Assembly: GCA_023957775.1 (NCBI GenBank)
Contig: JAMLGR010000003.1
Span: forward strand, 124,001 to 188,000
From: Fimbriimonadaceae bacterium
Lineage (GTDB): Bacteria > Armatimonadota > Fimbriimonadia > Fimbriimonadales > Fimbriimonadaceae
DNA: 64,000 bases
Direction of reading: 5' to 3'
Shown here piece by piece: positions 19,057-24,304 of the stretch. The notes below the pieces were generated by a model that was not told the origin of the DNA, made no database searches, and saw only the letters and a program-made list of their open reading frames with translations. How positions within the stretch are numbered: position 1 is the first letter of the stretch; every line of letters starts with the position of its first letter. The translations under genes were made by a program, and so were the position numbers.

Positions 19057-20949
19057 TTAGGGCAGCGGGAGACCCATCGCCTGCAGCCACTCGCGCAGCT
19101 TCGCGATCCTTGTGGGAGAGTCCAGCGCCACGTTGAACGGACGGCCCCGCGTGTCGATGATGAGCCCCAGCGTGCCGCTGATGAGGTTCGTGGTCTGGTC
19201 GCGCTGGTCGCGCTGGCCGCGGCTGGTGTCGAACCTCTTCACCTGCACGCTCTTGCCTTTGCCCGCGCCCACGTCGAAGCCGCGCTCCGGCTCGACCGTG
19301 ATCTGCTCGTGCTGTTCGATCTGGAATGGGACGACCTTGATGGTGCCGAACGGAACGCTGACGTCCAGGTTCTCTCCCTTCACGCTCACGCAGGGCTCTC
19401 CCTCTTTGCCCTCGCCCACGGGCGCGATGCACGTGCCCACCTTGACGATGCAGTCGTACTCGAACACCTGCTTGGCGGCCTCGTAGAAATGCTCGCTCAA
19501 GACACCGAGGTGCGGCATCATGAAGATCGAGTCCACGGTGAGCATCGTGACGCCCTCCGGCTGGTACGCGTCCATCATCATCAGCGCGGACTGCGCCCGA
19601 TCGGGCGCGTGGCTCAAGACGCCGCCCGAGCCGATCACCATGTCGAGCTCCATCATCTTGACGAGCGTCTCGCCGGATGCGGCCTGGTTGAAGATCTGGC
19701 CGACGTCGCGCTGCTGCTGCATGCCGGTCAGGCCGCGCGCGAGCGTTTTGTGGTGGAGAAACGCGAGCCGCAACGCCTCGCGCGCGACGCCGTGCTCGAT
19801 CAGCAGATCCTCGTACGTGTGGGGGATCGTGGTGGGTCGAATCATCTTGTTGCGCAGGCGGTTCCGCACCTCGGCCGGGTCGATCTCGAACGGCAGCCAC
19901 CGCGCGATGTTCTCGATCCCCGTCTCCTTGAGCACGTTGCAGATCGAGTAGGACATGCCCAGGTTCGCAGAGACCGTGCGGTTGTAGATCCCGCCGAACA
20001 CCGAGAAAACGTCCGTCGTGGCGCCCCCGATGTCGACGCCCAGGATGTTGATGCCCTCCTGATCGGCGTAGCTCTTCATCAGCTTGCCCACCGCGTTGGG
20101 GGTCGCCATGACCTCTTCGCTGGTCCACTCAAGCAGCTTCGAGTAACCGGGGGCTTGCTGCATGACGTGCTCGAGGAACATCTCGTGAATCTCGTCGCGC
20201 GCCGGACCCAGGTTCTCCTTGTCCAACGTAGGGCGGATGTTGTCCACCGCCTTGAGGGCGATGTCTTCGCCCAGCACCTCGCGCACCTCGTCCCGGGCCT
20301 GGGTGTTGCCCGCATAGATGATGGGGAGCTTCATGTCGCCGAAACGAGGCTTGGGGTCGGCGCGCCGAACGACCTCCGCCATCTCGATCAGGTGGCTCTT
20401 CGTGCCTCCGTCGGTGCCGCCCGACATGAGGATGATGTCCGGCCGCAGTTGGCGCAGGCGCTCCACCTTTTGGAAATCCTTCCGCCCGTCGTCGACCGCC
20501 AACGTGTCCATCAAGATGGCGCCTGCTCCGAGCGCAGCCCGCTCGGCGGACTCGGCCGACATCGACATCACGACGCCCGCGACCATCATCTGCAACCCGC
20601 CGCCCGCGGACGAGGTGGAGACGTAGATGTCGGAAGCGTCCAGCGGCGAGGTCCGCTCTTCGAGCGCCTTGCCGTTCTTTCGGAGGCGCCAGACCTTGTT
20701 GTCCTTGATCAGCTTCCGCCGTCCCTTCTGCACTCCTTCGGGGACCTTCTCTTCGGTGAGTTCCTCGAGCTCGGTCACCGAGTTGATCACCCCCAGGGTG
20801 ACGTCCTCGAAAGGCTTTTCGACCGTGGTCGGGGCCTCGCCGCGCGCGACGAGCCGGTACTCCCCCTGCTCGTTGCGCTCAATCAGGATCGCTTTGGTCG
20901 TTGTGGAGCCACAGTCCGTGGCCACGATGCGCAGGATGTCTTCGGACAT
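19057..20949 (-). CDS. GlmL/MutL-type ATPase (glutamate mutase accessory family)
   Basis: 630 residues. An ASKHA-fold ATPase: phosphate-1 motif VATDCGSTTTKAILIER near the N terminus, a second DIGGATTDVFSV-type phosphate motif (~residues 335-350), GTDGGTKSHLIEMAEVVRRA and GSGGVLSHAP further on. This matches the GlmL/MutL family that accompanies B12-dependent carbon-skeleton or amino mutases and is thought to reactivate them. No mutase subunit (GlmE/GlmS, OraE/S) is in the window, so its partner is elsewhere or the protein works otherwise. The start MSEDILRIVATDCG is supported by a CATAAT element 7 bases upstream. Confidence 0.85.
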   Translation of the reverse strand: MSEDILRIVATDCGSTTTKAILIERNEQGEYRLVARGEAPTTVEKPFEDVTLGVINSVTELEELTEEKVPEGVQKGRRKLIKDNKVWRLRKNGKALEERTSPLDASDIYVSTSSAGGGLQMMVAGVVMSMSAESAERAALGAGAILMDTLAVDDGRKDFQKVERLRQLRPDIILMSGGTDGGTKSHLIEMAEVVRRADPKPRFGDMKLPIIYAGNTQARDEVREVLGEDIALKAVDNIRPTLDKENLGPARDEIHEMFLEHVMQQAPGYSKLLEWTSEEVMATPNAVGKLMKSYADQEGINILGVDIGGATTDVFSVFGGIYNRTVSANLGMSYSICNVLKETGIENIARWLPFEIDPAEVRNRLRNKMIRPTTIPHTYEDLLIEHGVAREALRLAFLHHKTLARGLTGMQQQRDVGQIFNQAASGETLVKMMELDMVIGSGGVLSHAPDRAQSALMMMDAYQPEGVTMLTVDSIFMMPHLGVLSEHFYEAAKQVFEYDCIVKVGTCIAPVGEGKEGEPCVSVKGENLDVSVPFGTIKVVPFQIEQHEQITVEPERGFDVGAGKGKSVQVKRFDTSRGQRDQRDQTTNLISGTLGLIIDTRGRPFNVALDSPTRIAKLREWLQAMGLPLP

Positions 20950-20956
20950 GGGTTCG

Positions 20957-20962
20957 ATTATG
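20957..20962 (-). promoter_or_regulatory. -10 element CATAAT, leaderless glmL-like gene
   Basis: On the minus strand CATAAT ends 7 bases before the ATG at 20949. Confidence 0.5.
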
Positions 20963-21041
20963 GCAGGGGCTCGAAGGCCGGTCCCTTGAAATTCGTCTCC
21001 ACGTTCGTTCCCGGGTGAACTTGGCCGCCTTTGAACCCGTC

Positions 21042-21047
21042 TATCAT
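21042..21047 (+). promoter_or_regulatory. -10 element TATCAT for the 21140-24304 operon
   Basis: TATCAT is followed by 6 bases and then G21054, the first base of the structured leader; the spacing equals that of the leaderless promoters in this window. Confidence 0.45.
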
Positions 21048-21053
21048 AGTGTA

Positions 21054-21139
21054 GGTGGCCTGATGACGGATGGCCCGAACGGGAGGTGGGCCTCTTCCTC
21101 ATCAAAACCTAATGGCCACCCCGTATCGTGTGAATCGAC
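21054..21139 (+). ncRNA. Candidate structured 5' leader RNA
   Basis: Three nested stems: GGTGGCC 21054-21060 with GGCCACC 21114-21120; TGATGA 21061-21066 with TCATCA 21099-21104; GGCCC 21072-21076 with GGGCC 21088-21092, loop of 11. The first two stack directly on the 5' side. It ends 19 bases before the ATG at 21140. It does not match a riboswitch class I know; an accidental fold is possible. Confidence 0.4.
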
Positions 21140-21376
21140 ATGAACTTTTCGCGCTTGTTTGCACTGGTGATTGCCTCGCTGTTTCTCTTCACTCTCTCAA
21201 CCCCTGCCTCGGCCTACATCGACAGTGGGACGGGCAGCATGTTCCTCCAGGCCGCCATCTCGGGGATCCTCGGAGCCTTGTTCGTCTTTCGAGGCTTTTG
21301 GGCCAACCTCGCTTCGCACCTGGGCCTTAAGGCGAAGCCGGCCGCCGCACGAAACAGCAAGAAAAAGCACGCGTGA
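21140..21376 (+). CDS. Small membrane protein of the YIDxGTGS type
   Basis: 78 residues: an N-terminal signal/anchor helix (LFALVIASLFLFTLSTPASA), the motif YIDSGTGSMFLQAAISGILG leading into a second hydrophobic helix, and a basic tail ending NSKKKHA. Small proteins with a YIDPGTGS motif followed by a hydrophobic helix occur beside envelope glycan and sulfatase-type genes in many bacteria (from memory). Function unknown. First gene of an operon: the next gene's GTG overlaps this stop (GTGA). No clear ribosome site. Confidence 0.75.
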   Translation: MNFSRLFALVIASLFLFTLSTPASAYIDSGTGSMFLQAAISGILGALFVFRGFWANLASHLGLKAKPAAARNSKKKHA

Positions 21377-22749
21377 TCGAAGCCGTTCCGGCTTCGTTTC
21401 GCGATCCGTCGGGCTACGTCTTCCGAGAAGACGGCGTCCTCTACCGGCATGTTGACGCGAGCTACTCGGCGCACTGGGCGGCTCTGCGATCCAGCGGTTT
21501 GCTGCGCGATCTCCAAGAGCTTGGCCTGCTGATCCCCCACGAGGAGGTGGACGCGGCCCGCTCGCCCACCCCGGGGGCCGTCGCCGTGCTTCGGCCAGAG
21601 CGCGTGCCGTTCTGGTCTCAACCCTACGAGTGGTGCTTCAGCCAGCTCAAGGACGCCGCCCTCGCCACACTGGACATCCAGGAGCACGCGCTGCGGGCCG
21701 GGATGACGTTGAAGGACGCCTCGGCGTACAACATCCAGTTTCTGCGGGGCCGGCCGATCCTGATCGACACACTCTCCTTCGAGCTGCGCGACCCGGGGAG
21801 CCCGTGGCGGGCCTACCGCCAGTTCTGCCGACACTTCTTGGCGCCGCTTGCCATGGCCGCGTACGTGTCGCCGGACGCGGGGCTGCTGTCTCGAACGTTC
21901 CTCGATGGCGTGCCGTTGGACCTGGCGTCGGCGTCTCTGCCCGGCAAGACCCGCCTCAAACCCGGCTTGACGCTGCATCTTCACGCCCACGCAAGCGCGG
22001 AGCGGAAGGCCGATGGAACCCCGCGCCCGCAGTCCGCCTCCGTCGGCGAGCACGCCGCGTTGGGGCTCGTGGACCACCTCCGTTCCACGATCGAGGGCCT
22101 TCACTGGGACCCCGGATCGACGGTCTGGGCCGACTACTACGGCAGCACGAACTACTCGGCCGATGCCTTCGGCGAAAAACGGCGGCTGGTCTCCGATTGG
22201 ATCGCTGCGCTGTCTCCGGCGCCGGCGACGATCTGGGACCTGGGGGCGAACACCGGCGAGTTCAGCTCTTTGGCGGCGCAAAGCGGCGCGCGGGTGGTGG
22301 CGTGGGACATCGACCCGGGCGCCGTCGAACGCCACTACCTTGCGGTTCGCGAGCAGGAGGTCCCCAACGTGCTGCCGCTCGTGCAAGATCTCACCAACCC
22401 CAGCCCGGCGATCGGCTGGGGACTCGCCGAACGCGAGTCGTTGCTTGACCGGGCGGACGCCGATCTGGCGATGGCGCTCGCGCTCGTCCACCACCTTGCC
22501 ATTGGAAACAACGTCCCCCTCCCCGCGCTCGCCGAGTTCTTCGCACGACTCGCGCCGCGCCTGATCATCGAGTTCGTCCCGAAGTCGGACTCCCAGGTGC
22601 AGCGGCTGCTGGCGACACGCCCGGACATCTACGAGGGGTACACCGAGGAGGGCTTCCGAGACGCGTTCGCCCGCTGCTTCGACACGGTGCGGCACCAGCG
22701 GATCGACGGTTCCGAGCGCACCCTGTTCCTGATGGAGCGGCATGGCTGA
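21373..22749 (+). CDS. Class I SAM-dependent methyltransferase, NoeA-like
   Basis: 458 residues. The N-terminal ~250 residues include a YEWCFSQLKDAALATLDIQE segment and the kinase-like line LKDASAYNIQFLRGRPILID; the C-terminal half is a Rossmann methyltransferase with motif I ATIWDLGANTGEFSSLAAQS, an acidic VVAWDIDPGAV end of strand 2, and a later RLIIEFVPKSDSQV. The two-part architecture resembles NoeA-type nodulation/glycan methyltransferases. Probable substrate: an envelope saccharide, by context only. It overlaps the small membrane protein (4 bases) and the downstream phosphatase-superfamily gene (8 bases). Confidence 0.8.
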   Translation: MIEAVPASFRDPSGYVFREDGVLYRHVDASYSAHWAALRSSGLLRDLQELGLLIPHEEVDAARSPTPGAVAVLRPERVPFWSQPYEWCFSQLKDAALATLDIQEHALRAGMTLKDASAYNIQFLRGRPILIDTLSFELRDPGSPWRAYRQFCRHFLAPLAMAAYVSPDAGLLSRTFLDGVPLDLASASLPGKTRLKPGLTLHLHAHASAERKADGTPRPQSASVGEHAALGLVDHLRSTIEGLHWDPGSTVWADYYGSTNYSADAFGEKRRLVSDWIAALSPAPATIWDLGANTGEFSSLAAQSGARVVAWDIDPGAVERHYLAVREQEVPNVLPLVQDLTNPSPAIGWGLAERESLLDRADADLAMALALVHHLAIGNNVPLPALAEFFARLAPRLIIEFVPKSDSQVQRLLATRPDIYEGYTEEGFRDAFARCFDTVRHQRIDGSERTLFLMERHG

Positions 22750-24304
22750 CACCGCGGGGCCGCGCGCGGTGCACCCGCCGTTCTTCGCCCTGCACGCCCC
22801 CCTTGCGGTCTATGCGGCCAACGTCTCCCTGATCGCGTGGCCCGCGGTGGTGAAGCCGGCGGCGGCGATTCTGCTGGCCGTTGCGGTCGTGTGGGGAGCC
22901 GTTTCCTGGCTCACGCACAGCGCGCGCCGGGGCGCGGCCGCCGCATCGGCGGCGGTGTTCGCGACCTTCGCGTACGGTCCCCTCGTCACCGCGTGCGGCT
23001 GGTCCGACGACGGACCTTTGGGCATCGCGGTCTGGGCCCTGTTTGCGGGACTCGCGGCCTGGGGGGCCGCTCGGCTCGCACGCGCCTATGCCGCCACCAC
23101 AAGCCTCCTCAACGTCGCCGGACTCGCCATGTGCTCGCTGGCCCTGGGAAGCATCGCCGTCACGCGGGTCTCGATCGGCAAGCACCTGCATGCGAACCCG
23201 ACTCCCGGCACATCCGCGGCGAAGAAGCCCGCCGGCCCGCTTCCCGACGTCGTGCTGATCGTGCTCGACGGGTACGGGCGGACCGACACGTTCGAGCGGC
23301 TCTACGGGTTCTCGAACCAGGAGTTCGTCGACGCCCTGCGTCGGCGCGGCTTCTACGTGGCGCAGAACGCCCACTCGAACTACAGCCAAACCGAACTGTC
23401 GCTCGCCTCGACGCTCAATCTCCACTACATCCAAGATCTCGTCCCGCCGGGTCCCACGATGGAGGAGGCGCGCGGCATTCTCGACGGGCTGATCCAGCAC
23501 AGCGAAGTCTCCCGCCGACTCAAGTCGATCGGATACAAAACGATCGCGATCACGACCGGGTTCCCCGCCCTGAGGTTCGAGGGAACCGACCTGGTGCTGG
23601 GGTTTGAAGGAGGGAACGCGCTCTTCCTGGACGCGTTGCTCGAGAAGACCCCCTTTCGGCGCAGCAACGCGAGCCGCATCTCCCAGTTCGATCAGCGCCG
23701 GGACCTCTTGCGGGCGGCCTTCGACCACCTGGCGGAGTTCGGCTCGCCGAGCGCCGCGCCGCGTTTCATCCTCGTACACATCCTCGCGCCGCACCCTCCG
23801 TTCGTCTTCGGCGCGCACGGCGAGGAGGTGCGCCCCAAAGGACCGTTCGGGCTCTGGGACGGCAACCACTACATGGCGGTCCTCGGTAACGTCGAGACCT
23901 ATCGGGACGGCTATCGGGAGCAGGCGCAGTACATCGCGGAGAAGACGCTGAGAGCGATCGACCGCTTGGTCCAGGGTCGGGGCCAACGCCCGATCATCGT
24001 GCTCCAAGGCGACCACGGCCCAAAGTCGCTCCTCAACCAAGACGCCCTGGGAAACTCGGATCTCGACGAAGCGTTCGGCATCCTCAACGCGTACTACGTG
24101 CCCGAGGAGCTGCGATCCCGGCTCTACCCCTCCATCTCCCCGGTCAACACGTGGCGCCTGGTCCTCGGGTTCCTGCTCGGGACTCCGATTCCAAACGGGC
24201 CCGACCGATCCTACTACGCGCCATGGTCCGAACCGCTCAAGTTCGTGGATGTCTCCCAGCGTCTGACCCCCGCCCTTCCGGGAAGAACGGAGGCAGGGCT
24301 ATAA
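22742..24304 (+). CDS. Membrane-anchored sulfatase/alkaline-phosphatase superfamily protein
   Basis: 520 residues. Four or five N-terminal membrane helices (residues ~15-145) precede an extracytoplasmic domain of the alkaline phosphatase superfamily: PDVVLIVLDGYGRTDTFERL (metal Asp), NYSQTELSLASTLN (nucleophile region), HILAPHPPFVFG and QGDHGPKSLLN (metal Asp/His). The layout resembles LtaS/EptA-like phospho- or sulfo-group enzymes acting on envelope polymers. No Cys/Ser formylglycine motif CxPxR is seen, so a classical sulfatase is unlikely. Third gene of the operon; its stop lies within the promoter of the next gene. Confidence 0.8.
   Translation: MADTAGPRAVHPPFFALHAPLAVYAANVSLIAWPAVVKPAAAILLAVAVVWGAVSWLTHSARRGAAAASAAVFATFAYGPLVTACGWSDDGPLGIAVWALFAGLAAWGAARLARAYAATTSLLNVAGLAMCSLALGSIAVTRVSIGKHLHANPTPGTSAAKKPAGPLPDVVLIVLDGYGRTDTFERLYGFSNQEFVDALRRRGFYVAQNAHSNYSQTELSLASTLNLHYIQDLVPPGPTMEEARGILDGLIQHSEVSRRLKSIGYKTIAITTGFPALRFEGTDLVLGFEGGNALFLDALLEKTPFRRSNASRISQFDQRRDLLRAAFDHLAEFGSPSAAPRFILVHILAPHPPFVFGAHGEEVRPKGPFGLWDGNHYMAVLGNVETYRDGYREQAQYIAEKTLRAIDRLVQGRGQRPIIVLQGDHGPKSLLNQDALGNSDLDEAFGILNAYYVPEELRSRLYPSISPVNTWRLVLGFLLGTPIPNGPDRSYYAPWSEPLKFVDVSQRLTPALPGRTEAGL

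Follow-up and report, generated by a model that had tools for sequence, protein, structure and literature searches.

An apparently species-specific 5' hairpin behind a probable ECF-type promoter of an envelope operon in Fimbriimonadaceae

Is the compact hairpin that precedes a three-gene envelope operon in a Fimbriimonadaceae bacterium a member of a conserved regulatory RNA class, and from which promoter is it transcribed? The operon is located in a 64,000-nt stretch (hereafter, the window) of contig JAMLGR010000003.1 of assembly GCA_023957775.1. An initial annotation of this stretch had described the hairpin as a candidate new structured leader RNA, transcribed from a -10 box that would place the start exactly on its first base. 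Here, we analyzed the hairpin, its promoter region, and the orthologous operons of related genomes.

Operon and hairpin structure

The intergenic region is bounded at one edge by a divergent MutL/GlmL-type gene (19057–20949, reverse strand). On the forward strand follow the genes for a small membrane-type protein of 78 aa with a YIDSGTGS motif (21140–21376), a SAM methyltransferase-like protein of 458 aa (21373–22749), and a sulfatase/alkaline-phosphatase-superfamily protein of 520 aa (22742–24304). Open reading frames and Pfam agreed with the order initially described, namely a small membrane protein, a methyltransferase, and a phosphatase-superfamily enzyme: the third protein matched PF00884 (28 bits, cut-off 25), the second had Pfam matches that did not reach the curated cut-offs, and the first matched nothing in Pfam or NCBIfam. 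The methyltransferase was matched in 57 of 291 phylum genomes with a best identity of 60%, and 10 orthologous loci came from records whose labels, taken as given, name other phyla or groups. Among 48 loci including the source, the small gene was located directly upstream of the methyltransferase in 40, and the order of the small gene (YID(x)GSGS-type), the methyltransferase, and the sulfatase-fold enzyme was kept in 35.

The hairpin spans 67 nt (21054–21120, forward strand), and its minimum-energy fold (-32.9 kcal/mol) contains all of the stems described initially, which the sequence itself also bears out. The 7-bp closing stem pairs GGTGGCC (21054–21060) with GGCCACC (21114–21120), the inner stem pairs TGATGA (21061–21066) with TCATCA (21099–21104), and the apical stem pairs GGCCC (21072–21076) with GGGCC (21088–21092), with a further short stem (21068–21070/21096–21098) in the predicted fold. 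The asymmetric bulge between the inner and closing stems corresponds to 9 nt on the 3' side, AAACCTAAT (21105–21113). The closing stem had a pairing probability of 0.82–1.0 in 10 of 12 combinations of transcript start and end, and it refolded in both transcripts ending at 21260 (only 0.02–0.22). As had been noted, the hairpin ends 19 nt upstream of the ATG at 21140. No Shine-Dalgarno sequence is evident in this stretch (21121–21139, forward strand), and none was seen to be paired into the hairpin; a strict 5-mer match was found for 54 of the 205 genes on the contig in our own gene calls. No terminator-like site was found in 20900–21200, and no T run follows the hairpin.

Search for known families and relatives

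The initial impression that the element does not fit known riboswitch classes was borne out by Rfam. The hairpin had no match in the whole window at gathering thresholds, a search of 20940–21260 up to E = 10 gave a single 4.8-bit match located outside the hairpin, and the rest of the contig yielded tRNAs only. CTGATGA is a hammerhead-like motif; a hammerhead-like ribozyme in the 5' arm, where this motif occurs, was considered and dropped since an Rfam ribozyme match was absent.

Relatives of the hairpin were sought by BLAST with the leader and by a covariance model (R1) built from one sequence, the window hairpin. Both found one copy in the source genome, namely the hairpin itself. The R1 searches of 85 family genomes and 291 phylum genomes (source included in both) returned the window copy only, under stricter filters with which weak matches can be lost and with the genus represented by the source genome alone. 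With filters off, R1 gave weak matches only at the orthologous loci covered, i.e., 21 loci and 20 of the 26 loci L025–L050 (L025–L044); the best of them (L022, E = 0.0073) lay some 0.5 kb away from the small gene, on the other strand, and was treated as a chance match. We also compared the leaders of 39 orthologous operons with the intergenic region of the window by BLAST, having set aside eight loci in which the small gene was not found directly upstream (L003, L007, L010, L014, L015, L023, L032, and L042). The best E value was 2.8, and nothing resembled the hairpin; among these 39, the best hairpins of L022 and L028 reached z < -4 with sequences unrelated to the hairpin described here. No homologue of the structure was thus found with which compensatory changes could be assessed, which counts against the proposal of the initial annotation in a weak sense only. 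Of its structured leader RNA, the structure and the leader position stood, while a conserved regulatory RNA class was not supported by the 39 leaders or by the family and phylum genomes. A non-exhaustive literature search under the phylum name Armatimonadetes found nothing on riboswitches, and likewise nothing on ECF sigma factors with their promoter.

A promoter motif shared by orthologous operons

What the leaders of the family do share is a promoter-like motif, [GA]AAC-N16/17-CGT[ACT]. It was present in 16 of 19 operon leaders of the family/order, including the source, against a shuffled expectation for 19 leaders of 0.65 on average and 3 at most (300 shuffles). The leaders lacking it were L004, L011, and L012; the set of 19 includes L003, restored by hand, and L067 and L068, which were added. 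Outside the family, the same motif was found in 1 of 24 leaders. Two family members outside the set, L007 and L010, had a match to the exact pattern 251 and 396 nt upstream of the methyltransferase, respectively (500 nt scanned). A stem-loop that we had suspected to be shared by some relatives' leaders proved to be this promoter motif. Separately, a second shared block, about AAGAGATTTCTAAC, was observed approximately 20–30 nt upstream of the motif in the congeneric L028, L036, L038, and L041.

Judged by its sequence, the shared motif has the form of ECF-sigma promoters, and GTCTAA is a form of the ECF -10 box. It resembles RpoE- and SigW-type promoters in its GAAC -35 core, its CGTC-type -10 box, and the 16–17 nt between them; the window copy differs in being weak and having a spacer of 17, and the sigma factor reading it is one that we infer. 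For comparison, GGAACTT and ATTGAAACCTTT are reported as the -35 boxes of RpoE and SigW, respectively (PMC8103513), and GGAACTT and TCAAA for RpoE of a Vibrio (PMC4890791).

In 15 relatives, the distance from the end of the CGTN box to the start codon was 0–34 nt with a median of 10, and it was 9–15 nt in 12 of them; since the start codons of the relatives were set by our own rule, these distances depend on that rule. The short distance suggests that the messages of most relatives would be leaderless or nearly so. In six relatives (L006, L008, L009, L033, L043, and L068), the box ends exactly 9 nt upstream of the start of the small gene, and a 9-nt gap in 6 of 15 would put the ATG at about +1, as expected for leaderless messages.

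An ECF sigma/RseB-like module with the same promoter

The source genome contained 23 matches to sigma-70 region 2, and the operon-derived matrix applied upstream of these sigma genes gave 18.5 for one gene and 14.6 for the next best. The gene thus picked out is an ECF sigma gene (L075/L111; C1:296310–296936, reverse strand; Pfam Sigma70_r2, 2.6e-23), and it is preceded by GAAC-N16-CGTC. Among 25 NCBIfam models listed, its product passed the cut-off of the general sigma70-ECF model only, and the equivalog cut-offs for RpoE and SigW were not reached. The product of the next gene, which occupies the anti-sigma position, contains a single hydrophobic segment and matched no Pfam family, and that of the third gene of the module has a MucB/RseB match that narrowly misses the cut-off (22.0 vs 22.3 bits, E = 1.4e-4).

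The sigma factor was matched at E < 1e-30 in 80 of 85 family genomes. In the 30 best-matching of these 80 (source included), the exact motif was found upstream of the sigma gene at all 30 loci, compared with a shuffled mean of 1.09 and a maximum of 5 (200 rounds). RseB-like matches were present at all 30 loci and anti-sigma-like matches at 28, and the first in-frame start codon lay 13–16 nt behind the motif in 21 of the 30. A matrix made from these 30 promoters contains no operon sequence and is thus independent of the operon leaders; it gave 23.4 for the ECF sigma gene of the source and no more than 7.2 for any of the remaining 22 sigma loci, one of which carries a chance match to the exact pattern. 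In a scan of 300 kb of one relative (270 genes in our calls), the operon promoter, which was part of the training set, was the top site, and 3 sites reached 16. From the small number of high-scoring sites in these 300 kb and the low scores of the other sigma loci, we conclude that this motif does not represent a general promoter. By sequence, the same putative promoter stands before the operon and before the gene of its predicted cognate sigma factor, the pattern expected of autoregulation. A conserved sigma module of the RpoE/RseB-like type, located at a different place in the genome, probably serves the operon promoter. The envelope setting proposed initially for the operon holds, and this link strengthens it.

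The promoter of the window

With the sigma-gene matrix, the best intergenic site of the window consisted of a -35-like box, TGAACTT (21016–21022, with GAAC at 21017–21020), and a -10-like box, CGTCTA (21038–21043, with CGTC at 21038–21041), both on the forward strand and separated by a spacer of 17, a length seen in 2 of the 30 sigma-gene promoters. Its score of 11.3 was reached by 21 of 2000 shuffles and ranked 3rd among 108 contig leaders, and 12 sites in 2 × 258 kb scored as well. The site scored below all 30 sigma-gene promoters (16.1–31.1). The weakest motif-bearing operon relatives, L002 and L028, scored 11.5, just above it, and the out-of-family leader L045 scored nearly the same (11.1). 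With the operon matrix, which gave weaker support, the site scored 9.3; 84 of 1000 shuffles attained this value, and 4 other contig leaders surpassed it. The -10 box ends 98 nt upstream of the ATG, compared with the median of 10 in relatives. Taken together with the motif in orthologous leaders, the site at 21017–21041 is probably the orthologous ECF-type promoter, and probably in use.

By the usual positions of the boxes, transcription presumably starts at about 21049–21053, approximately 1–5 nt upstream of the stem at 21054. This revises the earlier view that TATCAT (21042–21047, forward strand) is the -10 box and that the start falls exactly on G21054. TATCAT shares bases with the 3' end of CGTCTA, and no -35 partner was found for it; a scan of 20900–21200 revealed no sigma-70 -35/-10 pair, and the ECF-type site is better supported. 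Nor is the pattern more than hardly enriched on the contig, where TATNAT was found in 3 of 108 leaders (1.9 in shuffled sequences) and looser 5-of-6 matches in 13 (5.0). A second ECF-type candidate, AAAC(21105)-N18-CGTG(21127–21130), which ends 9 nt from the ATG, was rejected with scores of 5.7 and -2.6 in the operon and sigma-gene matrices, respectively.

Hairpin strength and alternative explanations

The main rival to a functional reading is that a GC-rich spacer downstream of the promoter folds by chance and has no function, which we consider a substantial but minority possibility. At a window GC of 66.6%, 936 of 31,968 67-mers of the window (2.9%) fold as well as or better than the hairpin, which ranks 15th by energy among the 108 contig leaders (those of at least 80 nt in our own gene calls), and it was found in no relative examined. 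Against a chance origin, the 67-nt element has a z of approximately -4.05, a value as extreme as which occurred in 9 of 3000 random 67-mers from the window; it ranks 3rd of the 108 leaders by z and begins close to the predicted transcription start. For reference, the 107-nt leader had a z of -2.9, and at 1.3% of window positions a fully complementary 7-bp partner lies no more than 90 nt away. The hairpin is therefore unusual in strength among the contig leaders, though not unique. Elsewhere in the source genome, the leader L054, which precedes a predicted start at 68883 (forward strand) on contig C3, has a stronger hairpin (z = -6.2, -37.0 kcal/mol), for which no Rfam match at the gathering threshold was found.

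Other explanations assign the element a more specific role. It is improbable that the hairpin is a regulatory RNA proper, exerting RNA-level control over the operon through binding of a metabolite or a protein: its compact stem-bulge-stem form with an asymmetric bulge and its position upstream of the operon would suit such a role, but the absence of any Rfam match, of relatives in the source genome, the family, the phylum, and the 39 leaders, and of a leader terminator or a visibly paired ribosome-binding site speaks against it. An element acting at the DNA level, either an operator or what is left of a small mobile palindrome, appears very improbable. The inverted repeat folds stably on the reverse strand as well (z = -3.8), and GGTGGCC occurs more often in the window than expected (29 vs 15.7); however, the element occurs once in the genome, unlike multi-copy REP or MITE sequences, its outer arms are 53 nt apart, which is long for an operator, and no flanking target duplication was apparent by eye. 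More improbable still is a leader peptide read from the ATG at 21063, which would mediate coupled translation or serine-dependent control. Its frame (21063–21143) comprises 26 codons, including four consecutive serine codons, and its TGA stop overlaps the start codon of the small gene. This overlap favors coupling; however, overlapping frames of such a kind occur in 11 of the 108 leaders, the codon log-odds of -0.92 per codon is below that of every sampled gene piece, and the third-position GC (0.56) is lower than the mean of the genes (0.844), and we set the peptide aside on codon use.

Proposed working of the leader

The related clusters examined lack the hairpin and have in common a stress-type ECF promoter near the start codon; the hairpin therefore appears to be a 5' mRNA structure specific to this species rather than a new RNA-switch class. 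As a type, it adds one example to a familiar category, the 5' UTR stem-loop. In our preferred reading, the operon would be an RpoE-like envelope-stress operon with an ECF promoter and a lineage-specific hairpin that acts passively on the mRNA; taken as a whole, we regard this reading as evenly balanced between right and wrong. Transcription would proceed from the ECF-sigma-type promoter at approximately 21016–21043, and the short or absent leader of relatives would here be lengthened by the 67-nt hairpin just behind the transcription start. Subtracting the hairpin from the 98-nt gap leaves 31 nt, which falls inside the range of 0–34 nt in relatives. Most likely, the stem-loop would be passive, extending mRNA life or insulating the start region, or else neutral. 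As it ends 19 nt from the ATG, ribosome binding should stay unblocked. The genome encodes the 5'-end-sensitive nucleases RNase E/G and RNase J, with matches over the cut-off; the match of an RNase Y-like protein was below it.

In other systems, 5' hairpins are reported to stabilize mRNA (PMC3997798; PMC5360333), and the anatomy seen here resembles that of stem-loops guarding a message against decay that depends on its 5' end. The closest known counterparts are the mRNA-stabilizing 5' stem-loops of Escherichia coli ompA and papA, the Bacillus subtilis aprE leader, and Mycobacterium tuberculosis DrrS. In common with these, the predicted leader has its stem-loop close to the 5' terminus, lacks a ligand platform, and leaves the ribosome-binding region open. 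In contrast to these stem-loops, the window hairpin is private to one species and probably has a few unpaired 5' nucleotides. For DrrS, two or more unpaired 5' nucleotides are reported to weaken protection (PMC5360333), and any effect here would thus depend on the exact start; a start slightly before the stem, which may be the case, would count against 5' protection. Riboswitches and the cis-regulatory RNAs of Rfam are similar in being structured leaders upstream of an operon, whereas here there is no family match, conservation, or visible expression platform.

Significance

The RNA side of this locus is modest, consisting of one species-specific 5' hairpin, and the regulon link matters more. 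It is improbable that a lineage-specific regulatory RNA was inserted between the RpoE-like ECF promoter and the envelope operon; if true, the inserted RNA would make an ancestrally short or leaderless message leader-controlled, and the operon would gain a second, RNA-level input besides the envelope-stress sigma factor. Across the bacterial family, the operon is tied, by a predicted promoter motif common to both, to the ECF sigma/RseB-like module. An operon of obscure function that is present in a minority of phylum genomes would thereby gain a testable role in the envelope stress response.
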